Shown here: piece after piece, positions 2,648 to 16,386 of the stretch
Position numbering within the stretch: position 1 is the first letter of the stretch
Layout of the letters: every line of letters starts with the position of its first letter
Origin: Archaeoglobales archaeon
Lineage (GTDB): Archaea > Halobacteriota > Archaeoglobi > Archaeoglobales > Archaeoglobaceae
Assembly (NCBI GenBank): GCA_029984855.1
Contig: JARQZL010000125.1
Location: 1-38,444, forward strand
Reading direction: 5' to 3'
DNA: 38,444 nucleotides
Translations under genes and position numbers: made by a program
Notes under the pieces: generated by a model
Seen by the model: the letters and a program-made list of their open reading frames with translations, nothing else
Told to the model about the DNA's origin: nothing
Database searches by the model: none

Positions 2648-3250
2648 TTAAACCTTGCCTGTCAAAGAGGAAAAAAGAGCTTTTATCACATCGTAAATTG
2701 AGAAAGGCTTTGACTTCTCCTTCTGTGGTGTTGCCTTCACACCAACTTCCTTCTTCAGTTCTGCAAACTTATATATGACCTTGCCGTGGCATGCAACACA
2801 TATATCATTGAGAATCTCGCCATGAATTTCGTGGATTCCGCCCTTGTGGCAGTAGTAGCAGTTTGCAGACTCAGGTTTGGTCACAACGCCCTCTCCATGG
2901 CATGCTGAACAATTGATGTTTGTATGGGGGATGTGAACTGCTATAGCATCAAGGTTATTGCTGCTGTATCCAGCACCAATATGGCATTTGATGCAGGGAT
3001 TGAGGCCATGGAGCTTTGAGAGCTTTTCCATGTTGATATGAGTGCCACTCCATATGTCAACGCTGTGACACCTGCAGTGGGACAGTTTGGATATCTGTTC
3101 CTGCTTGCTTAGAAGCAAATCGTGACAGGGGAAGCATATCTCACCGTAACCTGGAGGGTGCTGACTGCCCTTGAGGACTGCTGCAGCACACCCTACTGAT
3201 GATGTCAAGATTGCCAAGGTCAAGGCAAGCTGAATATACCTTCTCGGCAT
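2648..3250 (-). CDS. Small secreted multiheme c-type cytochrome
   Basis: The protein probably carries electrons outside the membrane. From the chosen start it has 200 residues: a hydrophobic signal segment at about 5-25, then covalent heme sites CFPCH (39-43), CIKCH (86-90), CSACH (114-118), CYYCH (131-135) and CVACH (151-155). An aberrant C-R-C-H at 59-62 has one residue fewer than the canonical motif. About 45 residues without heme motifs follow, ending in a short hydrophobic helix. A longer frame begins at 3307, but a TATA box (ATTTATACTC, minus strand, 3270-3279) lies inside that extension 25 nt before the ATG at 3250, so the shorter start is preferred. No specific family (c7, NrfH and so on) could be assigned. 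It lies near a second multiheme cytochrome at 4878-5660. Confidence 0.85.
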   Translation of the reverse strand: MPRRYIQLALTLAILTSSVGCAAAVLKGSQHPPGYGEICFPCHDLLLSKQEQISKLSHCRCHSVDIWSGTHINMEKLSKLHGLNPCIKCHIGAGYSSNNLDAIAVHIPHTNINCSACHGEGVVTKPESANCYYCHKGGIHEIHGEILNDICVACHGKVIYKFAELKKEVGVKATPQKEKSKPFSIYDVIKALFSSLTGKV

Positions 3251-3279: not shown

Positions 3280-3439
3280 CAGTTTTTGTTTTTTGATCAA
3301 AAAGCAAAGAAACTGGAAGCCTGTGTTGTTGATTGTTGATGCCAGCAATTGCTCAAGAGGGAAATGTAAAAAACTTCTCTTCTCAGGAATCTTTAGTGCT
3401 ATGCACTTAACCAAATCTCAGTTTGGTTCCCTAAATGAT

Positions 3440-3464
3440 ACCAAAATTTAAATATTTTGGTTCC
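3440..3464 (+). promoter_or_regulatory. TATA region inside a perfect palindrome (possible operator)
   Basis: ACCAAAAT (3440-3447) and ATTTTGGT (3454-3461) are perfect 8-bp arms around TTAAAT, and the whole element contains the likely TATA sequence AATTTAAATATT. The start ATG chosen for the downstream ATPase (3477) is about 26 nt further on. A direct repeat TTTGGTTCC also occurs at 3422-3430 and 3456-3464. The arrangement suggests repression by a dimeric protein that covers the TATA box. Confidence 0.45.
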
Positions 3465-3476
3465 TCATATGATCCC

Positions 3477-4784
3477 ATGAAGGGGGAGATTCTTAAGAGG
3501 GTAATAGTTGAGTTCCACGAATCCGAACTGCCAGAGTTAATCGAAAGGAAGATAGTCGATGTTGATTTTTTAGAGACGGGGAAGATAATCAGTATCGTTG
3601 GTCCGAGAAGGTGCGGGAAAACGTATTATCTCTACTACCTCATGAAGAGGTTGATCCGACAAGGTGTCGATAAAACGAGGTTGTTATACGTGAATTTCGA
3701 AGACGAGAGGATTTTACCTTTTAGCGTGAAGGAGTTCGACTTAATCCTCGAAGCTTATTTTGAACTCTACCCAGAGAACAAAGGAAAGGAAGTATACGCA
3801 TTTTTTGACGAAATCCAGAACGTGGTAGGATGGGAGGTAGCCATAAGAAGGCTGTACGACAGAGAAAAAATGAGAATATTCGTCACTGGTTCAAGTTCAA
3901 AGTTGCTGAGCAAGGAGATCGCAACTGCTCTGAGAGGAAGAACGATAAGCTACGAACTGCAACCGTTCTCGTTTCTCGAAATCTTAACGACAAAAGGCGT
4001 TAAAGTTACGCCAGATCTACCGTATTCGAGCAGAAGATTCTACGTTAAGAAAATTCTTGATGAGTACATGAAGCCTGGTGGCTTTCCGGAAGTTGTACTC
4101 GAAGATAATGAGAATACTAAGATAAGGGTACTTCAGGAATACCTCAACACGATTTTTTTCAGAGATTTGGTGGAAAGGTATTCGGTAAGAAACACCATCC
4201 TGCTGAAAGAACTCATCAGATTTCTTATATCAAATATTTCGAGATATTTCAGCATATCCAGATTCTACAAACTGGCCAAGCAGAACTTCAGAGTTACCAA
4301 AAGGACAATTCTCAACTACTGCTCATACCTCGAAGACGTAAGGCTAATACTCTTCGTTAAAAAGTTTGGAGGTCTTAAAGAGCAGATTGTCAATCCCAGA
4401 AAGGTATACAGCATAGATGTCGGTTTCAAAACTGCAAGCGGATTCTACACATCCGAAGACCTTGGAAGGATTGCGGAAAATCTGGTTTTCCTCAAGCTGA
4501 GGGAGAGGTGGCTTAGAGATCCACTTACAGAAATATACTACTGGAAGCAAAAACACGAAGTTGATTTTATTGTTAAGAGAGGTAGAGCCGTTGAAGAAAT
4601 CATTCAGGTGTGCTGGGATGCTGAGGAAGCTAAGAAAAGAGAAATCAGGGGTCTGTTAGAAGCTTCAAGGTTTTTCGGAATTAAAAGAAGTGTCATTGTG
4701 ACAGGAGATTTTGAAGGGGAAGAAGAAGTAGAAGGCGTAAAAATTGAGTACATACCTCTCTGGAAGTTTTTGGCTTTAATTTAG
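3477..4784 (+). CDS. AAA+ ATPase with C-terminal DUF4143 domain
   Basis: This is one of the abundant archaeal ATPases of unknown role, often found in accessory regions. Counting from the ATG at 3477 (435 residues), the Walker A motif is GPRRCGKT at 42-49 and Walker B is YAFFDEIQ at 107-114. A sensor region TGSSSKLLSKEIATALRGR follows. The C-terminal half has the DUF4143 pattern, ending with YYWKQKHEVDFIVKRG, which resembles a PD-(D/E)XK nuclease-fold core. A longer frame starts at 3435, but the TATA-like sequence at about 3446-3457 lies within it, so the ATG at 3477 is preferred. It stands alone between two cytochrome genes transcribed on the opposite strand. Membership of the family is clear; the substrate and role are not. 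Confidence 0.85.
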   Translation: MKGEILKRVIVEFHESELPELIERKIVDVDFLETGKIISIVGPRRCGKTYYLYYLMKRLIRQGVDKTRLLYVNFEDERILPFSVKEFDLILEAYFELYPENKGKEVYAFFDEIQNVVGWEVAIRRLYDREKMRIFVTGSSSKLLSKEIATALRGRTISYELQPFSFLEILTTKGVKVTPDLPYSSRRFYVKKILDEYMKPGGFPEVVLEDNENTKIRVLQEYLNTIFFRDLVERYSVRNTILLKELIRFLISNISRYFSISRFYKLAKQNFRVTKRTILNYCSYLEDVRLILFVKKFGGLKEQIVNPRKVYSIDVGFKTASGFYTSEDLGRIAENLVFLKLRERWLRDPLTEIYYWKQKHEVDFIVKRGRAVEEIIQVCWDAEEAKKREIRGLLEASRFFGIKRSVIVTGDFEGEEEVEGVKIEYIPLWKFLALI

Positions 4785-4877: not shown

Positions 4878-5660
4878 TTACTGATAGTTCACGCCGGGAA
4901 CGCTGCCTGGCCAGTTGTTCGCATTATAGGTTGTACTTCCGTTTCCAGTAGTGTTACCCCAAGAGTACGCTGTAGCAGTACCGTTGTATGCCCAGTCAGT
5001 GACAGTCCAGTTGTGCGGGCCGTTTACAGTCGTAACCGGGTTGCCAAGACTGAGGTTGAACTCCAAGCTTCTCGCATGCTGCCATCTGATCTTCACTGCA
5101 ACATGGGTGTGACATGCAATACATGCCTCATTAGAATCCTGCAGTGTACCGTTCTGTATTGCTCTTGCAACGAACGCGTTGTGTGCTTCATACTTTCCGT
5201 TGTATGTTGCGTTTGAGTAGTCGTATGGCGAGCTAACGCCAAATCCACTTATATTGAAGCCTCCCGCATAGTATCCTGCATAGTTTGTTGCTGCAGCAGA
5301 GTTGTTCTGGTGGCACATCATACACGCAACAACGCTTGCTGCATGTGCCTGTTGACCCGGTGTGTAGCTGGTGTAGCTGCCATTCACGCTTGCATAGGTT
5401 ATGCTTCCGTTACCCCTGTGACACGCTTCACAGTCATGTCTGTCTGCAGTATTGGGATCTCCCCAGTGTATGTGGAAGTTGCTCTGGCTCAGTTCTTCAA
5501 AGACATCAGCATGACATTTCTCGCACGGCACGTTGTTACCAGTTCCGCTGAGATTGTACCAGTAGTGCTGTCCTGCGAACATTGAGACTGTCGAGGGTAA
5601 AACTAATATGCCCGTAGCAGCCAATGTTACCGCTATCAGTATCAGCTTTCCACCGTTCAT
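4878..5660 (-). CDS. Secreted tetraheme cytochrome, candidate extracellular nanowire subunit
   Basis: The 260-residue protein begins with a classic signal segment (KLILIAVTLAATGILVLP). It has exactly four heme sites: CEKCH (46-50), CEACH (77-81), CMMCH (113-117) and CIACH (180-184). Nine other histidines (32, 63, 65, 75, 106, 160, 186, 195, 216) could supply distal ligands. There are 11 N-glycosylation sequons (N36, 84, 93, 136, 150, 170, 202, 217, 226, 236, 240) and a Tyr/Asn/Thr/Gly-rich tail with no membrane anchor. Polymerising tetraheme cytochromes of this size form extracellular cytochrome nanowires in Archaeoglobus veneficus. Heme count, size, export signal and glycosylation potential all fit that model, but identity with that family is inference. 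A strong TATA box and a GGGGTGA Shine-Dalgarno suggest high expression. Confidence 0.75.
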   Translation of the reverse strand: MNGGKLILIAVTLAATGILVLPSTVSMFAGQHYWYNLSGTGNNVPCEKCHADVFEELSQSNFHIHWGDPNTADRHDCEACHRGNGSITYASVNGSYTSYTPGQQAHAASVVACMMCHQNNSAAATNYAGYYAGGFNISGFGVSSPYDYSNATYNGKYEAHNAFVARAIQNGTLQDSNEACIACHTHVAVKIRWQHARSLEFNLSLGNPVTTVNGPHNWTVTDWAYNGTATAYSWGNTTGNGSTTYNANNWPGSVPGVNYQ

Positions 5661-5666
5661 TTTTAT

Positions 5667-5703
5667 TCACCCCAGTTAAAAGTGTCTTGAGGACAATATT
5701 TAA
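5667..5703 (-). promoter_or_regulatory. Strong promoter and Shine-Dalgarno of the tetraheme cytochrome
   Basis: On the minus strand, TTAAATATT (5695-5703) is a good TATA box about 40 nt before the ATG. GGGGTGA (5667-5673) sits six bases before the start codon and matches the 16S anti-Shine-Dalgarno. Most neighbouring genes look leaderless, so a short leader with a strong ribosome site stands out here. Confidence 0.55.
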
Positions 5704-5836
5704 GCTTTTTGAAAAAAAGTTGATGATAAGACTATTGTAATTATAACCACTTTGATAGCGGCTCGTTTCATTTTAAAGCTATTTTCAAAGCAGAAGTTGA
5801 AACAGTTTTGATTAGTATGAATAAATTCTTTTGGCT

Positions 5837-6835
5837 TTAAAAAATTGCAAAGTCGGAAAGTCTTTTCTGGCCGGCCATATATGGAGTAGCTTTTTTAACG
5901 CTGAACCCCATCCTCTTCAGATCTGCAAGGCTGTAACCCTTCTCAATTAGTTTTGCAGCCCTTGGACCTATTCCAGGAATGTCTATCGGCCTTGCTATTC
6001 CAAATTTTTCCGCAAGCAGAACCTTTGGATCGTCTTTAAGCATTCCGTCTTCAAGAACGTCACGTATGCGCCTTGCGTCGAACCCGTAAAGCCTTATGAG
6101 TGCATCGATGCTGTAAAGCCTTGCTGCCCTTTTTCTGCTCTCACTTCTGCAATTCTCCATGGGTGTGTTCTTCAAGGGCGTAAAGGGCGATATGTAGAAC
6201 CTTGAGATGCCGTATTCCTCATACTGCCTTTTCATGCATGCTATGATATCAGCATCGCTCTCTCCAAGCCCCGCTATAACCTGTGTGGTGTGGCTTTTAG
6301 AGTTACCATATCTCCTTACTTCTTCAGAAATCCATCGCTCTCTCCTCAGAATATCATATCTGCTCTTCACACTTACCACTTCGTTAAGCATCGATGGTTT
6401 GGCCACCTCAATATTTATGCTAACCCTGTTTGCAATTTCAATTGCCTGCCTTATCTGCTCTTTGTTTGCCCCTGGAACTATTTTAAGGTGGACGTAACCC
6501 TTAAATTCTTTCCTTATGAGCTGTCCCGTCTCGATTATATCCTCCATCACTTTTTCTGGATCTGAGTGCATTCCTGAACTCACAAATGCACCATCCACAA
6601 GCCCACGCCTTCTAAGGTTTAGAAAGGCTCTGGCAAACTCTTCAGGTGTTACTGATATTCCTTTTCTCCACGGGTTGGGGCAGTATGCACAATCAAACCT
6701 GCAGTTGCTTGAGAGCAGAGCTTTGAACAGCCTGGCCTTTTTGCTCATGGCGACGTAGATGAGTCCATTGAACTTGCAGTCCCCGCAAACATCGAATCTG
6801 CTCTCTGCTGCAAGCCTTGCTATTCTGGCATTCAC
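5837..6835 (-). CDS. Radical SAM protein with C-terminal helix-hairpin-helix
   Basis: The radical SAM cluster motif is C45-x3-C49-x2-C52 (CRFDCAYC), preceded by a CxxC at 17-20. The C-terminus has a DNA-binding-type helix-hairpin-helix IPGIGPRAAKLIEKG (286-300). The architecture (332 residues) resembles the radical SAM proteins annotated as putative DNA modification/repair, which in bacteria are often next to a uracil-DNA-glycosylase-like gene. No such partner is visible here. The start is GTG at 6835, which lies in a divergent intergenic region shared with thrC. The substrate is unknown. Confidence 0.8.
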   Translation of the reverse strand: MNARIARLAAESRFDVCGDCKFNGLIYVAMSKKARLFKALLSSNCRFDCAYCPNPWRKGISVTPEEFARAFLNLRRRGLVDGAFVSSGMHSDPEKVMEDIIETGQLIRKEFKGYVHLKIVPGANKEQIRQAIEIANRVSINIEVAKPSMLNEVVSVKSRYDILRRERWISEEVRRYGNSKSHTTQVIAGLGESDADIIACMKRQYEEYGISRFYISPFTPLKNTPMENCRSESRKRAARLYSIDALIRLYGFDARRIRDVLEDGMLKDDPKVLLAEKFGIARPIDIPGIGPRAAKLIEKGYSLADLKRMGFSVKKATPYMAGQKRLSDFAIF

Positions 6836-6906: not shown

Positions 6907-6926
6907 CTTTGTTACAAGCGGATTCC

Positions 6927-8108
6927 ATGGAATACTACCTTCGATGCATCGAGTGCGGTAAAAAATATGAGAGAGAGGACATATACACATGTGAATGTGG
7001 TGGATTGCTTGAGGTTGCCATAAATTTTGATAGCGTTGAAATTGACTTCAGGCTTGACAGTAACAACTTAAGCGTCTGGAAGTACCGCTGTCTGCTCCCC
7101 ATTAAAACGGAGCCGGTATCACTGAAAGAGGGTGGAACACCTTTATATCATACAAGGCTTGAAGAAGAGCTTGAATGCGGAATTTACGTCAAGCATGAAG
7201 GAGCGAACCCGTCTGGCTCATTCAAGGACAGAGGTATGACTGTTGGAGTTACGAAAGCTATAGAACTTGGAAAAAAAGCTGTTGCCTGTGCATCAACAGG
7301 CAATACCTCAGCATCTATGGCGATGTACGCTGCGAAGGCTGGCTTAAAGGCCTACGTTTTGCTTCCGGCAGGTAAGGTAGCCTTAGGCAAGGTCGCTCAA
7401 GCCTTAATGCACGGTGCGAGGGTTATAGGCATCAGAGGAAACTTCGATGAGGCGCTTGCCCTCGTAAGGCAGATTAGCGAGGAGGAGGGCTTTTATTTGC
7501 TCAACTCCGTCAATCCTTTCAGGCTTGAGGGACAGAAGACGATAGCTTACGAGATAGTGGACGAGATAGGTGTACCTGACAGGGTTGTTCTGCCTGTTGG
7601 CAATGCCGGCAACATTTCTGCAATTTACAAGGGATTCAGAGAGCTGAAGGAGCTCGGTCTGATAGATTCAATTCCAAAGATGACTGGAGTGCAGGCTGAG
7701 GGTGCAAATCCCATTTATCGAGCAGTTAAGTGTGGAAAGGAGGCCATAGATCCAGTCATGAATCCGGAGACTGTTGCAACGGCTATAAGAATAGGCCAGC
7801 CTGTGAATGCGAGAAAGGCACTCAGGGCAATATACGAGTCGAATGGGACAGCGGTTCAGGTAAGCGATGACGAAATCATTCAGGCTCAAAAAGATCTTGC
7901 GAGGGAAGGTATTGGCGTTGAACCTGCCTCGGCAGCATCAGTTGCAGGATTGAGAAAACTCATGGCTGAAGGAGTTATTGAGAGGGATGAAGTTATTGTA
8001 TGTATAACCACCGGCCATCTGCTCAAAGATCCTGAAGCAGTCATAAGGGCATGTGGAAAGCCTGTTGAGGTTGATGCAAGTCTGGAGGCCATTAAAGAGG
8101 TTCTCTAA
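6927..8108 (+). CDS. thrC: Threonine synthase
   Basis: This PLP enzyme converts O-phosphohomoserine to threonine, the last step of threonine synthesis. The 393-residue product starts with a zinc-ribbon-like N-terminus (C7, C10, C22, C24), as in many archaeal and bacterial ThrC proteins. The PLP lysine is K100 in NPSGSFKDRG. Other signatures are CASTGNTSASMAMYAAKAG and the phosphate-binding LPVGNAGN. The end overlaps the 3' end of thiE tail to tail by 17 bases. Confidence 0.95.
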   Translation: MEYYLRCIECGKKYEREDIYTCECGGLLEVAINFDSVEIDFRLDSNNLSVWKYRCLLPIKTEPVSLKEGGTPLYHTRLEEELECGIYVKHEGANPSGSFKDRGMTVGVTKAIELGKKAVACASTGNTSASMAMYAAKAGLKAYVLLPAGKVALGKVAQALMHGARVIGIRGNFDEALALVRQISEEEGFYLLNSVNPFRLEGQKTIAYEIVDEIGVPDRVVLPVGNAGNISAIYKGFRELKELGLIDSIPKMTGVQAEGANPIYRAVKCGKEAIDPVMNPETVATAIRIGQPVNARKALRAIYESNGTAVQVSDDEIIQAQKDLAREGIGVEPASAASVAGLRKLMAEGVIERDEVIVCITTGHLLKDPEAVIRACGKPVEVDASLEAIKEVL

Positions 8109-10715: not shown

Positions 10716-11186
10716 TTACGGGCTCATAACGAGCTTTGCCGACCATACAGGATTTCCTGTATCAGTGTCTATCACAGTTACCTTGAAGGTGTCCCCCACC
10801 GCTATGCTGAGCCTGATGTCAGGCCCCGTAAACCTTGCGCCCCATGCACTCTTGGTAAAACGGATGAACGCCGTATCTCCGGGAGAGATGTAGTCTGCAT
10901 GCGGTGAGAAAGTAACATTGCTCATGTTTACGTAGCCCGACGTCAGTGGATGCGATGTCTCAATTCTTATTCTTAGGTTGGACTTATAAAGCGTGTCTCC
11001 ACTGAGCATGTCCAGCCTTACGTATCCATCGCTGTACGATGCACGTGCATCGAACTGTGCATTGGGGGTTCTATCCTTCAGGGGTATCGATCCTGTGTAA
11101 GAGCTGACCGCTGCCGCAAGCAGCACTGTAACAACGAGCATCAGCATCACGCCGATTACCGGACTTACAGCTTTTTCTTTCTTCAT
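10716..11186 (-). CDS. Archaeal type IV pilin (Pilin_N family)
   Basis: The 156-residue protein has a class III (prepilin) signal: a short basic head followed by KAVSPVIGVMLMLVVTVLLA, the PF07790 Pilin_N signature. A globular C-terminal beta-rich part follows. A prepilin peptidase would cut near KA/VSP; no such peptidase gene is visible in this window. The start overlaps the stop of the preceding pilin as ATGA, so the two are translationally coupled. The first 28 or so codons contain an 83-base stretch identical to the neighbouring pilin gene, while the rest differs completely. Confidence 0.85.
   Translation of the reverse strand: MKKEKAVSPVIGVMLMLVVTVLLAAAVSSYTGSIPLKDRTPNAQFDARASYSDGYVRLDMLSGDTLYKSNLRIRIETSHPLTSGYVNMSNVTFSPHADYISPGDTAFIRFTKSAWGARFTGPDIRLSIAVGDTFKVTVIDTDTGNPVWSAKLVMSP
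11095..11177. repeat. 83-bp direct repeat, copy 1 (pilin N-terminus)
   Basis: All 83 bases are identical to 11745-11827, an offset of 650. The match includes third codon positions of the pilin signal and hydrophobic helix. Identity stops sharply on both sides, where the coding sequences diverge completely. Confidence 0.9.
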
Positions 11187-11833
11187 ACTCCCTCACCCTC
11201 CACCATGACGTCCTTATGCCAGATGACGGTGTTTGCCGGGAGATACACTATTTTGACTGTAATGTAATGGCCCGGAGTGACGTTCCAGCCATCAGCGATG
11301 CATGCGCAGAATCCTGTCACGTTGCCCCCTTCGTATTCTGTAACATTCCACGGAGCTTGCGGATAATTCTCGTACCAGTCTGCAGTCATTGTTATGCCTG
11401 GAAAAATAGTGTAGTTTCCGAAGTCAACTGCCGGGTTGTTACCAAACCAGCCCTTTGACATATCGTTTAAGTACGGTGAAGTGCCATTCTTCCATCCACT
11501 CCAGCTTGTATAGTAGTGCGTGTTCCTGCTGCACGGCAGAACCTCCATAGTCTTTCTTCCATAAGCATCTGGATTGTACGTGATTATCTTCAAATCCTTT
11601 GTAGGAATCCTGTCTCCCGAAATCTGCTTTATCTCCATGTATGACACTTTGTAGCTGTAACCGCCCATGGACATTGTAGCATTCTTTACTATCCTTGCAT
11701 CAAACACTGCACTTGGCGCTGGCTTCTCTGTCTGAACGCTGCCGGTGTAAGAGCTGACCGCTGCCGCAAGCAGCACTGTAACAACGAGCATCAGCATCAC
11801 GCCGATTACCGGACTTACAGCTTTTTCATTCAT
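11183..11833 (-). CDS. Archaeal type IV pilin (Pilin_N family)
   Basis: The 216-residue pilin has the N-terminal signature KAVSPVIGVMLMLVVTVLLA and a larger, Trp/Tyr/Asn-rich head domain. Several N-x-S/T sequons are present (for example NAT, NGT, NYT, NVT). It has its own promoter 109 bases after the upstream pilin gene: TATA-like TTTAAATAC at about 11881-11888 and a GAGGTG ribosome site before the ATG. It overlaps the next pilin by four bases. This may be the major or a regulated pilin. Confidence 0.85.
   Translation of the reverse strand: MNEKAVSPVIGVMLMLVVTVLLAAAVSSYTGSVQTEKPAPSAVFDARIVKNATMSMGGYSYKVSYMEIKQISGDRIPTKDLKIITYNPDAYGRKTMEVLPCSRNTHYYTSWSGWKNGTSPYLNDMSKGWFGNNPAVDFGNYTIFPGITMTADWYENYPQAPWNVTEYEGGNVTGFCACIADGWNVTPGHYITVKIVYLPANTVIWHKDVMVEGEGV
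11745..11827. repeat. 83-bp direct repeat, copy 2 (pilin N-terminus)
   Basis: Partner of 11095-11177, with all 83 bases identical. It encodes the same pilin N-terminal helix in the upstream pilin gene. Such identity points to recent duplication or gene conversion. Confidence 0.9.
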
Positions 11834-11942
11834 TTTCTAACACCTCTACTTAATTTGACTTAATGTCAAGTAAATTTGAGTATTTAAACTTATCTACTCT
11901 TTTTGATTGACTGTCAAAAATATTTGTCATTATTCATTAAAA
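11834..11942 (-). promoter_or_regulatory. Internal pilin promoter with two TTGAC/GTCAA palindromes
   Basis: In this 109-base gap, TTGAC-TTAAT-GTCAA (11855-11869) and TTGAC-T-GTCAA (11907-11917) share the same 5-bp arms with spacers of five and one bases. They bracket a TATA-like TTTAAATAC (minus strand, about 11881-11888). The first palindrome covers the expected transcription start and the second lies just upstream of the TATA box. This is a typical arrangement for a specific regulator of the two downstream pilins. Confidence 0.5.
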
Positions 11943-12686
11943 TTAGTACAGTCTCACATCGAAATCCCTGATCTCAAGTGTCAGATTGACGTTCGTCTTG
12001 CTCCCAGTAGCTGTGTTTCCCGTAGAGATCACCCTGAAACCGGCGTTTTTCATTGCATCAATCCAGTAGTCTTTAAAAATTGCATCATTTACAGTTACTG
12101 TCACATTTACGTTTGTGAAGGAGTAAATTCTGCTGTTACTGTGGATTGTAATGTACGCAATACTGTTGCCGGCAACTTCCTGTTCACCCGAAATCAGGTT
12201 ATCAAGAAAGATGCGGATCAGGCCTGCATTGCTGTGGATCACGTCCGGAGGCTTTCTTGTGATATTTTTACCGTACTGGTAAATCCTGACTCCCCCCTCA
12301 GAGAAAAGCGTCGTTCTGTCGGGTATGCGTGTGCTGAACGTTGAGAGGTTGAGAGCGAAGAGCTTTGTATTGTAAGATACATCCGATACATTCTGTGCAC
12401 TCACCTTTACTGCAACGTCCCCACTGCTCCACAGATGAATACTTGATGTTGTCTGAACAGAATTAAGAATGGTCGTTCCACCACCGAGTTCGAGTACAGC
12501 CGTTCCATTTCCGGGATACATACTGGCTATTTCAAGAAAGGATGATGTCAGCCTCTCCTCCTGCAGGATTTCAGCCCTCTTCTTCAACACGGGCAGATAG
12601 TGAGATCCAATTGCCGCAATCGATGTTGATACGATTGCAAGAACGAGAATCATTGCCACAAGGGTTGAAACTCCTCTCTCCGACAT
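11943..12686 (-). CDS. Pilin-like membrane-anchored protein
   Basis: The 247-residue protein starts MSERGVSTLVAMILVLAIVS, a short basic head plus hydrophobic helix typical of archaeal pilin-like or minor pilin proteins. The rest is beta-rich with many N-x-S/T sequons (NVS, NLS, NIT, NVT). The ATG has a GGTGGT ribosome site and lies eight bases after the upstream pilin stop, so it belongs to the pilus operon. It may be a minor or tip pilin. The exact family is not recognised. Confidence 0.7.
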   Translation of the reverse strand: MSERGVSTLVAMILVLAIVSTSIAAIGSHYLPVLKKRAEILQEERLTSSFLEIASMYPGNGTAVLELGGGTTILNSVQTTSSIHLWSSGDVAVKVSAQNVSDVSYNTKLFALNLSTFSTRIPDRTTLFSEGGVRIYQYGKNITRKPPDVIHSNAGLIRIFLDNLISGEQEVAGNSIAYITIHSNSRIYSFTNVNVTVTVNDAIFKDYWIDAMKNAGFRVISTGNTATGSKTNVNLTLEIRDFDVRLY

Positions 12687-12694
12687 GCGACCAC

Positions 12695-13099
12695 CTACTC
12701 AAAGAAAAGCCTGCAAAGCACCTGTCCATCAGCAGCAATTGATATCGTAACGCTGCTACCGTAAGTCCGACTTATATTCAGGTTTTCACCAAAATCCCAG
12801 TATCCGTTCTCATTTTCGTCGTTGATTGCTGACAGAATTTGGGATGTATCAAGGGAAGTAATCGTTCCATTATCTATGACAATCTTCAAATCGGCAAGGT
12901 TTATGGAGTCTCCCCCCTCATGAACGATCGTGTAGTTATCTCCGTTTATTCTTCCAATAAAGCTCGCATACGGCACATCTTTCAGGTTAGGAATCAGGTT
13001 TCCCATACTTGCTGAAAGAGCTGCGGCGAGTACGACAACTATCACGAGCAGGAGCATCTCACCGAGCACTTCAGAGATGGCGTGCTCTCCCCTTTCCAC
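12695..13099 (-). CDS. Short archaeal pilin
   Basis: The 134-residue protein begins at a GTG (13099) with VERGEHAISEVLGEMLLLVIVVVLAAALSA in two overlapping parts: a basic, acidic-containing head and a long hydrophobic helix of the Pilin_N type. No in-frame ATG is available nearby. It sits 45 bases after the TadC-like gene and eight bases before the next pilin-like gene, inside the pilus operon. Confidence 0.75.
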   Translation of the reverse strand: MERGEHAISEVLGEMLLLVIVVVLAAALSASMGNLIPNLKDVPYASFIGRINGDNYTIVHEGGDSINLADLKIVIDNGTITSLDTSQILSAINDENENGYWDFGENLNISRTYGSSVTISIAADGQVLCRLFFE

Positions 13100-13144
13100 C
13101 TCTATCCCTCCATCTTCCTGTTTTCATACCAATCCTCCCGTTAT

Positions 13145-14836
13145 TCAGATCATGAACTCAAACATCAGCAGAGAGGCCACTGCAAATACACAGACGTGCT
13201 TCAGACCGTGGAGGATATGACCTTTCTCCATCTGTCCGGCAAGAACTCCTGAAAAAAGAGCAGTAATCAGTGTCGTTCTGTACATGAGCCCCTCTATTCT
13301 TCCTCCCGAAGCCGAGAGATTGAGAAGAAATGAGTGTTCAAGGGTGTAGGCGGTGTACAGCAGGACGAAGAAGGATATGTATACTATCACGAGGTACGCA
13401 AAGCCGACTGTAAACCTCATATTCTTCATCTTTAAGCCGTACTCAAAGTCCTCAATTGTTATCAGCAGCACGTCTCTTATACTTTCAGTCACCTCACTTG
13501 CACGTACGAGTGAGGAAATTGCCCTCCTTACCTCTGCAACTCCCACTCTGTTGACAAGCTCGATGAATGCTTCACCCACAGTCGCTCCCCATTCAATGTC
13601 CGAATCAACGAGCCTGATTTCCCTGCTCAGCACGCCAAGCTTGGACTCTTTCAGCATCTTCACAACGCCCTGCAGGGTTAAGCCGACATCTCTGAGGTTC
13701 AGGATCTGTCTGAGCAAATCCGGTATTTCTTTCTCAACTCTCCTGACGAACCTCGCCCTGTACTCGAATGCCACGAGAAGAGGGAGCAGCAGGGAGAGAA
13801 GGATTACCGCAATAAAGCTTTCTTCAAATTTGAATTTAATGCATCTTGCACTAAGAAATGTGGCAGAGAGGAGAAGAGGACTGAAAAAGAGGGCATTGTA
13901 GTAATTCTCCCTCACTGCCGTAAATCCGGAAAATCTTTTTTGTTTTCCTGTATCTGTCGCATAATTTTTTACCCTTTTCGACAGTATGGATGTTGAGAAG
14001 TGATGCCCCCTCATTTTAACCCTTGTAATGCTCAGATCTTCCTTTATGTTGATCAGATCTACCAGATATACCAGTATTCCACCGCCAACCGGAATAAAGA
14101 AATACATATATGCAAAAAACTCCCTCTCCAATCCCCCCTCTAAAAACTGAGCAGTTGAGACCATTATAAGAAGGAATACCGGTAAGGCGACGAAGAATAC
14201 CACAAACACCTCTGCAAGAATTTCAAGGGTTTTCATGTGAACCTCAAGCTGTCTTCTTGCCTTCTCCCTGAGGTTATTCGTTTTAGATGCCATGTAGTCC
14301 TTCATATCTCCTCCGCTCTCAAAAACCATAATCAATCCTTCAAGAAATTCTTTCAGGCTTTCTGAGGGAGTTGAGTCCATCAGATTGGTCATGGCCTTAA
14401 CAAGGTTCTCTCCAAACAGCTCCACATCCCTCACTATAAACCCAAACTCTTCCGAAACCTCACCATACAGGTCTTTCTCTGAAAATATCTGCCTGAATAC
14501 TTCATACAGCGGCATCGCACCACACAAAGAGCGCATATACGTTATCGCATGAGGCAACTTCAAATCGATGGCTGTTTTTCTGCTCTTTGCAGCAGCGTAG
14601 GGGTAGATAAGTGCAGAGGAGTAGAAGAGGATAGAGAACACGAAAGGGACGAAAAATGGAAAGGAGGAATGAACAGCATATTTTTGCAGGAGATATCCCG
14701 AAAGAGCTCCAGTAATACCGGCAGCGGTAGCTGTCCATGAAAGTTCTTCCGGAGTAAAATCCAGCATTGCCTTTCTCAGTACTTTTTTCATCTCGCACCT
14801 TCGTACCGGCAGAAGATAGAGTTCAGAGATTTTCAT
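13145..14836 (-). CDS. TadC/PilC-type pilus assembly membrane protein
   Basis: The 563-residue polytopic protein corresponds to the archaeal type II/IV secretion membrane platform (T2SSF domains, like ArlJ or TadC). Hydrophobic segments occur at about 30-75, 205-260, 315-360 and 475-560. Two cytoplasmic helical domains (about 80-200 and 365-470) are the two T2SSF-like repeats. The start at 14836 overlaps the ATPase gene by 14 bases. An ATG at 14791 (MKKVLRKAML) is an alternative. Together with the ATPase it forms the assembly motor for the pilins encoded downstream. Confidence 0.88.
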   Translation of the reverse strand: MKISELYLLPVRRCEMKKVLRKAMLDFTPEELSWTATAAGITGALSGYLLQKYAVHSSFPFFVPFVFSILFYSSALIYPYAAAKSRKTAIDLKLPHAITYMRSLCGAMPLYEVFRQIFSEKDLYGEVSEEFGFIVRDVELFGENLVKAMTNLMDSTPSESLKEFLEGLIMVFESGGDMKDYMASKTNNLREKARRQLEVHMKTLEILAEVFVVFFVALPVFLLIMVSTAQFLEGGLEREFFAYMYFFIPVGGGILVYLVDLINIKEDLSITRVKMRGHHFSTSILSKRVKNYATDTGKQKRFSGFTAVRENYYNALFFSPLLLSATFLSARCIKFKFEESFIAVILLSLLLPLLVAFEYRARFVRRVEKEIPDLLRQILNLRDVGLTLQGVVKMLKESKLGVLSREIRLVDSDIEWGATVGEAFIELVNRVGVAEVRRAISSLVRASEVTESIRDVLLITIEDFEYGLKMKNMRFTVGFAYLVIVYISFFVLLYTAYTLEHSFLLNLSASGGRIEGLMYRTTLITALFSGVLAGQMEKGHILHGLKHVCVFAVASLLMFEFMI

Positions 14837-16364
14837 AGAACCTTATCCTGTAATCATTTATTTTCTCCACAAGCTCCCTCATCCTACACCCCATTGCCTT
14901 GAGATCATTCAGGAAGCAAGCTCTCCTTTTTATTTCTCCTTTTACCTCTCTGTGATTCATTCCGTACTGTTTTGCCATGTCTTCTATTAGCTGTGAGCCA
15001 TGCCAGGTGAAGCCTTCTTTTTTCCTGTCTCTAATAAAAACGGGATTGTAAACGATTCTGTCGTTCTCGTCGAGGTACACGTCGTATAAAGCCTGCAACC
15101 TCCTCACCACCCTTCCACCTGCATGTTCTATGTCGAGGAGCATTATCAGGTTCAGTGAATCAAACATCGAAACGGGAACATTGATTGGCTTGTGGATAAG
15201 TCTGTTTATCGCAGAGCTGACGTCTCCCGCATGCAGTGTAGAGTATGTTGTATGTCCTGTATTCATGGCTTGGAAAAGAGTTATGGCCTCCTTCCCTCTT
15301 ATCTCCCCAAAGAGTATGTACTCCGGTCTCTGTCTCAGACATGCCTTCAGCATCTCAAACATCTCTTCGCTACTCTTTGCGAGCAGAGCCAGCCAGTTCT
15401 CGTGAGGAAGCATCACCTCCCTCGTATCTTCTATTGAAATTATCTTGGATACGTACGGTATGAACAGGGATACCGCATTGAGCATCGTCGTCTTTCCGCT
15501 TGCAGTACTGCCGATAATGAGCATATTCTTCCTGCAATCAATACAGAGCCACAGAAATGCCATAACTTCAGCGCTCACGCTGTTCCAGGCTATGAGATCG
15601 AGTGGTGTGATTGCCTCTTCGCTGAACTTCCGAATCGTGAATGATGCCCCTCTCGTGCTTACAACACTTCTGTACGTAACCTGTAACCTCTCTCCGGTTG
15701 GAAGCGTTGCATCTGCAAGCGGGCTCTCAATTGAGACCTGGGCATTCGCTTTCTGAGACAGTTTGAGAACAAAACTGTCGAGTTCCGGTTCATCAAACAC
15801 AATGTTTGTTGGCATACTGCCATAGGCCCTGTGGTAAACGTAAACAGGAAGGTTGTAGCCACTGCAGGAGATGTCCTCAACATGTCTGTCTTTAAGAACA
15901 GCGTCTATTTTTCCATAGCCTGTGAACTCCCTGTTCAGATAGTACCAGACCTTACCGACAGATTGCATGCTGAGGCTGGAGTTCGTCCTTCGAAGGTGAT
16001 CGATCACCTCGTCAAACAGAAGATTCCTCTTTTTCTCGAGCTCTCTTTCACTCTTCAGTATTATTCTGTCTCTTATAGAGATGTAGGCGTTCTCCAAAAC
16101 CTGAAACTCTTCACGGCTGAGCTTTGGTTCGAGCACCTCGTATTTCGTGATCCTGTCCTCATGTATTACTGCCATTGCAAAAGGTCTGCTAAGCCAGTAC
16201 TTCTCCAGAATACCATTTTCGGAAATGTCGCACTCAAAGTATGTTTCATAATTGGCTGAGATTATTTTGTTCCAGATTTCCCTGTACTTCTCTTTCTCTC
16301 CATTCTGCTTTTTACGTTTGTCTCTTCGAAGAACTTTGGCAATGAAATCCAATGAAGCTGACAT
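14823..16364 (-). CDS. Type IV pilus assembly ATPase (GspE/PilB/TadA family)
   Basis: This cytoplasmic hexameric ATPase powers pilin insertion. From the ATG at 16364 (513 residues) it has Walker A GSTASGKTT (285-293), an Asp box ISIEDTRE (310-317), Walker B ILFGEIRGKEA (350-360) and a His box GHTTYSTLHAGD (370-381). A longer frame starts at a TTG (16385), but a TATA box AATTATAAG (16387-16395) abuts it and is 27 nt from the ATG at 16364, so the ATG is chosen. It is the first gene of a six-gene pilus operon. Being linked to Pilin_N pilins and not to archaellins, it serves an adhesion-type pilus and not the archaellum. Confidence 0.92.
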   Translation of the reverse strand: MSASLDFIAKVLRRDKRKKQNGEKEKYREIWNKIISANYETYFECDISENGILEKYWLSRPFAMAVIHEDRITKYEVLEPKLSREEFQVLENAYISIRDRIILKSERELEKKRNLLFDEVIDHLRRTNSSLSMQSVGKVWYYLNREFTGYGKIDAVLKDRHVEDISCSGYNLPVYVYHRAYGSMPTNIVFDEPELDSFVLKLSQKANAQVSIESPLADATLPTGERLQVTYRSVVSTRGASFTIRKFSEEAITPLDLIAWNSVSAEVMAFLWLCIDCRKNMLIIGSTASGKTTMLNAVSLFIPYVSKIISIEDTREVMLPHENWLALLAKSSEEMFEMLKACLRQRPEYILFGEIRGKEAITLFQAMNTGHTTYSTLHAGDVSSAINRLIHKPINVPVSMFDSLNLIMLLDIEHAGGRVVRRLQALYDVYLDENDRIVYNPVFIRDRKKEGFTWHGSQLIEDMAKQYGMNHREVKGEIKRRACFLNDLKAMGCRMRELVEKINDYRIRFYENL

Positions 16365-16386
16365 TATATCAAAGAAACTTAACAAT

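Follow-up and report, generated by a model that had tools for sequence, protein, structure and literature searches.

Baquero et al. are said to have described, in 2023, an extracellular cytochrome nanowire of Archaeoglobus veneficus, AvECN. In those parts of the literature that treat the structure, PDB entry 8E5G is the A. veneficus cytochrome filament AvECN, UniProt F2KMU8 (PMC12954529, PMC12203936, PMC11936953), and three of its four hemes receive their distal histidine from another subunit (PMC12203936). A tetraheme AvECN homolog, MmcX, is encoded by the Methanocellales archaeon Met12, and a nanowire has been proposed for it from its predicted structure (PMC11176372). Chadwick et al. (2022) also described, in ANME, Geoglobus and Ferroglobus, a signal peptidase together with an 8x TMH protein and proposed a maturation role for both; their genes adjoin giant S-layer cytochromes in some groups (PMC9012536).

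Our analyses show that the window, the whole 38,444-nucleotide stretch of DNA studied here, from a sister species in the genus of A. veneficus, carries a gene that joins the known AvECN family as a new member. The open reading frame, which starts with ATG (Table 1), has 8e5g as its sole PDB match (phmmer, E 1.4e-71), over the full length (query 1-255 versus chain 1-259). In this PDB search 8e5g alone was found at E <= 1, without any sequence match to PcECN of Pyrobaculum or to Geobacter OmcS, OmcE or OmcZ. The AF2 model of the tetraheme protein, a single chain without hemes, is of moderate quality (pLDDT 68, pTM 0.49); Foldseek nevertheless retrieved 8e5g with it (E 5.6e-13, TM 0.55/0.63) and nothing else below E 0.001. 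The first-pass annotation had taken the gene for an A. veneficus ECN-type subunit and suggested alignment to that protein; this full-length alignment, the fold, the ligand positions, the chromosomal place and the promoter all agree with that reading. The protein also scores above the cut-off of PF14522 (Cytochrome_C7; 26.9 versus 24.8 bits), at residues 42-118 only and probably owing to its CxxCH spacing. One genome of the window's genus (G001) contains a gene (L107:9818-10591) letter-identical to 8e5g at residues 2-259, the 258 residues compared, and we take it as A. veneficus for this reason. Overall identity between AvECN and the window tetraheme is about 52%. By homology to AvECN, the window protein would form filaments, and its hemes would be ligated across subunits in the window species as well.

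Table 1. Coordinates of the features discussed, numbered from the first letter of the window.
Feature	Position	Strand	Basis
ECN-family tetraheme nanowire subunit gene, 260 aa, four CxxCH	4878..5660	-	ORF, PDB search, fold search
Signal peptide, about residues 1-30	5571..5660	-	model and family conservation; approximate end
H32, candidate distal ligand, directly after the signal peptide	5565..5567	-	near-invariant in family alignment
Heme site 1, CEKCH	5511..5525	-	motif
H63 (H65 in another alignment), candidate distal ligand	5472..5474	-	near-invariant in family alignment
Heme site 2, CEACH	5418..5432	-	motif; CxCH in 11/153 aligned family members
H106, candidate distal ligand	5343..5345	-	near-invariant in family alignment
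Heme site 3, CMMCH	5310..5324	-	motif
H160, candidate distal ligand	5181..5183	-	near-invariant in family alignment
Heme site 4, CIACH	5109..5123	-	motif
Promoter region shared with AvECN	5661..5740	-	alignment with A. veneficus upstream region
Radical SAM protein, syntenic flank; A. veneficus counterpart 79% identical	5837..6835	-	comparison
Threonine synthase-like protein (sequence-based name), flank, 89% identical in A. veneficus	6909..8108	+	comparison
AAA_14/DUF4143 ATPase between both cytochromes; not at this position in A. veneficus	3435..4784	+	profile and locus comparison
Linked multiheme cytochrome, five CxxCH and one CxCH, hydrophobic C-terminal helix	2648..3250	-	sequence and homologs
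CRCH (CxCH), putative sixth heme site	3065..3076	-	alignment with homologs

The four CxxCH motifs begin at residues 46, 77, 113 and 180 and span 139 residues to H184, close to the 140 or so first given; 20,000 shuffles of the mature sequence yielded a mean of 0.013 such motifs and a maximum of 2. There are indeed nine histidines outside these motifs (32, 63, 65, 75, 106, 160, 186, 195 and 216). We aligned 129 short members of the family from Archaeoglobaceae, Methanophagales, Syntrophoarchaeum, relatives of Methanoperedens and Hydrothermarchaeota, and exactly four of the non-CxxCH histidines proved near-invariant (H32, H63/H65, H106 and H160, in 98-99% of the homologs), which is the number required for four bis-His hemes. 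The four CxxCH motifs and these histidines are each kept in 127-129 of the 129 sequences, except for the first cysteine of site 2 (120/129), and all eight candidate axial-ligand positions are common to the window tetraheme and 8e5g. N-glycosylation is suggested by the abundance of sequons, of which we count 12 (residues 36, 84, 93, 119, 136, 150, 170, 202, 217, 226, 236 and 240) rather than the 11 initially listed, compared with a mean of 4.2 in shuffled sequences (P(>=12) = 2e-4); six positions, as read from the alignment, are common to AvECN. The signal peptide and unanchored polar tail proposed earlier were both recovered: the AF2 model has an N-terminal hydrophobic helix (residues 3-28), and the mature protein ends in a polar, beta-rich tail with no C-terminal anchor, so that, judged from its sequence, the tetraheme would be secreted and free of any membrane anchor in its mature form. 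A motif around the signal cleavage region, LPSTVSxFxGQHxWY, is conserved throughout the ECN family; such conservation is atypical of signal peptides.

The window and A. veneficus share the same gene order, strands included: threonine synthase-like protein, radical SAM protein and ECN, with the small cytochrome on the other side of ECN. Between the two cytochromes lies a five-heme paralog in A. veneficus and an AAA_14/DUF4143 ATPase gene in the window. The promoter is also shared, with 71 of 83 alignment columns identical in the comparison of the 80 bases upstream of ECN and AvECN. As noted at first pass, it contains a strong TATA-like element (CTTAAATAT, 5696-5704) and a Shine-Dalgarno sequence (GGGGTGA, 5667-5673, minus strand), and both are conserved in A. 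veneficus. The window gene is the positional counterpart of AvECN, a claim carried by synteny and not by the tree. One-to-one orthology from the tree alone was rejected, as AvECN pairs there with its own five-heme paralog and not with the window gene. A palindrome, TTGTCCTCAAGACA (5683-5696, minus strand), overlaps the promoter and is identical in A. veneficus, making it a possible operator; as the mark of a regulon it was discarded, since the genome has a single site besides that at the ECN promoter and A. veneficus has no other, which does not exceed the control. Further along the window, at 10716-16385 on the minus strand, four small proteins have pilin-like hydrophobic N-termini, two of them starting alike with KAVSPVIGVMLMLVVTVLLAAAVSSYTGS, and are followed by ORFs that resemble, by sequence, a type IV pilus membrane platform and ATPase.

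The window's genome has about eight genes or gene fragments belonging to the ECN family. One of them, on contig C152, is 86% identical to the window gene, with stretches of 98% identity alternating with others of 60-80%. Gene conversion is suggested as the simplest reading of this patchwork, and it would explain why the window gene and AvECN are only 52% identical compared with 79-89% for the flanks. Likewise, a four-heme and a five-heme gene of one locus (L113:9537-10325 and L113:8167-8979) share 252 identical bases at their 3' ends, suggesting recent conversion of the C-terminal domain in this pair. Five-heme variants with one extra CxxCH occur at L095:6548-7399, L014, L015, L017, L113:8167-8979 and L107:8819-9640.

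We consider it very probable that the gene codes for a secreted tetraheme c-type cytochrome, the positional counterpart of AvECN, and that its product forms heme-wired filaments by polymerising extracellularly. Following the AvECN example, each subunit would contribute four bis-His hemes to an unbroken stack, distal histidines would be swapped between adjacent subunits, and electrons would hop down the filament to an external acceptor. The hexaheme protein at 2648-3250 might hand electrons toward the filament base, and a signal peptidase, a membrane protein and an Ig-like surface protein, whose genes lie on a different contig of the genome, could process, export or anchor the subunits. With about eight ECN paralogs in the genome, another copy could supply the main filament subunit. 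The window copy might then be a minor ECN-fold component (initiating, terminating or regulatory) of a filament made mainly of another paralog, such as the close C152 copy, which is immediately followed by a short ECN gene and a nine-heme fusion. We regard this as unlikely, since the AvECN position, the promoter and the N-terminal MNGGKL are kept by the window copy and not by the C152 copy, and it is AvECN that makes up the filament observed in A. veneficus. Many tetraheme cytochromes act as monomers, and the window protein could in principle be another soluble or surface-bound electron carrier that does not polymerise; its homology to a proven filament subunit over the full length, which takes in H32 and the beta-rich C-terminal part, makes this very improbable.

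The small cytochrome linked to ECN is probably a hexaheme protein, with an unusual CxCH as its sixth site. At the position of its CRCH, homologs have CxCH, CxxCH (L021, L113, L115, L117) or CxxxCH (L054, Methanoperedens). In the set of 12 sequences, six histidines outside CxxCH are conserved (one at 90%), a number consistent with six hemes. Its AF2 model was too weak for a fold search (pLDDT 52.7, pTM 0.35). In A. veneficus, the run of genes that contains AvECN ends with a counterpart 68-76% identical; this linkage and the co-occurrence with ECN described below lend support to the earlier side guess that the small cytochrome is a putative electron donor. Putative CxCH sites occur in both cytochrome families, aligned where homologs have CxxCH, and ECN homologs having them include L093:587-1327, L109:6226-6957, L027, L029, L031-L034, L036 and L037. 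CXCH is already among the search motifs of a cytochrome-finding pipeline (PMC11218250). From these alignments we infer that CxCH may bind heme at ECN site 2 and in the hexaheme; if shown to do so, it would widen the natural set of heme attachment motifs.

The ECN family also includes 24 fusions that combine an ECN-like N-terminal domain, with 16/16 ligand positions kept, and a C-terminal part with further CxxCH motifs. All 24 fusion genes directly follow an ECN-family ORF, mostly overlapping it, and one of these preceding ORFs is itself a fusion. This architecture suggests that they may be filament caps, docking subunits or adaptors. At four loci (L009, L010, L011 and L012), an ECN ortholog adjoins both a gene pair that by its sequence resembles a [NiFe]-hydrogenase and a gene for a tetraheme protein with similarity to an ECN heme domain in its C-terminal part; this arrangement may represent a filament base. 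ECN genes also have giant ORFs as neighbours, each with 29 to 40 CxxCH (L059:2708-7918, L117:11795-16795 and L115:7620-11999). No relative turned up when viral contigs were scanned with the ECN alignment.

In many archaea the neighbours of ECN include an S26 signal peptidase, a multi-TM membrane protein (gene B), a large Ig-like surface protein (CARDB/Wzt_C-type, with a C-terminal hydrophobic segment) and the hexaheme cytochrome. Across 75 ECN loci, many of them on short contigs, the peptidase was counted at 23, the multi-TM protein at 15, the Ig-like protein at 14, the hexaheme at 11 and all four at ten. In the window's genome the first three lie together on contig C54 and the hexaheme is in the window. 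Among 36 Archaeoglobaceae genomes, 18 have ECN, and each partner is found in 17 of these 18 and in none of the 18 others (Fisher 4e-9 per partner against ECN, shared ancestry ignored; a weak generic peptidase match in G022, 5e-13, was left out). Each partner has one miss: three are lacking in G030, a genome that is 72% complete, and the hexaheme is lacking in G027. By contrast, cytochrome c assembly proteins (PF01578, chosen since counting CxxCH patterns in the DNA of each genome gave too much noise to split ECN-plus from ECN-minus genomes) are present in 36/36, implying that the partners follow the presence of ECN and not that of c-type cytochromes in general.

The peptidase/8-TM pair is already known and has been read as general cytochrome maturation; a link of the partners to ECN was not found in the literature searched, which did not include the original Cell 2023 AvECN paper. 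We tentatively propose, at not quite an even chance, a dedicated set for AvECN-type biogenesis and docking, in which the peptidase would act on LPSTVSxFxGQH, together with the multi-TM protein, an anchored Ig-like protein, a CxCH hexaheme at the base and fusions for capping or docking. The partners might instead serve the maturation of multiheme cytochromes generally and co-occur with ECN because both mark extracellular electron transfer, in line with the published proposal and the genes next to giant S-layer cytochromes (PMC9012536). We take this seriously and rate it somewhat below even: the confinement of the partners to ECN-bearing genomes, when PF01578 is found throughout the family, and their joint presence at ten ECN loci of several lineages argue against it. 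The locus and its relatives in any case name concrete candidates for nanowire processing, anchoring, electron feeding and termination, in genomes near a cultured species with a solved filament structure.

Compared with known systems, the Geobacter OmcS and OmcE filaments work alike, as polymerised multiheme cytochromes with inter-subunit histidine ligation, but gave no PDB sequence match to the window protein, and the folds are described as unrelated (PMC12203936). The peptidase and 8x TMH pair of ANME, Geoglobus and Ferroglobus, matched by description and hosts, probably corresponds to our S26 peptidase and gene B (PMC9012536); it was tied to multiheme maturation in general, whereas here it tracks ECN in Archaeoglobaceae together with the Ig-like protein and the hexaheme. 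MmcX is, like the window protein, a tetraheme AvECN homolog, but comes from a different order, habitat and locus. AvECN itself differs from the window protein at about half of the residues, in its sequons (9, versus 12 in the window) and in formal charge by simple count of the mature proteins (-11, versus -6 in the window), and the window locus departs from that of A. veneficus in having the five-heme paralog on another contig and the ATPase gene between its two cytochromes. The two nonetheless share full-length homology, fold, four CxxCH motifs, four distal histidines, position, promoter and a nearby hexaheme.
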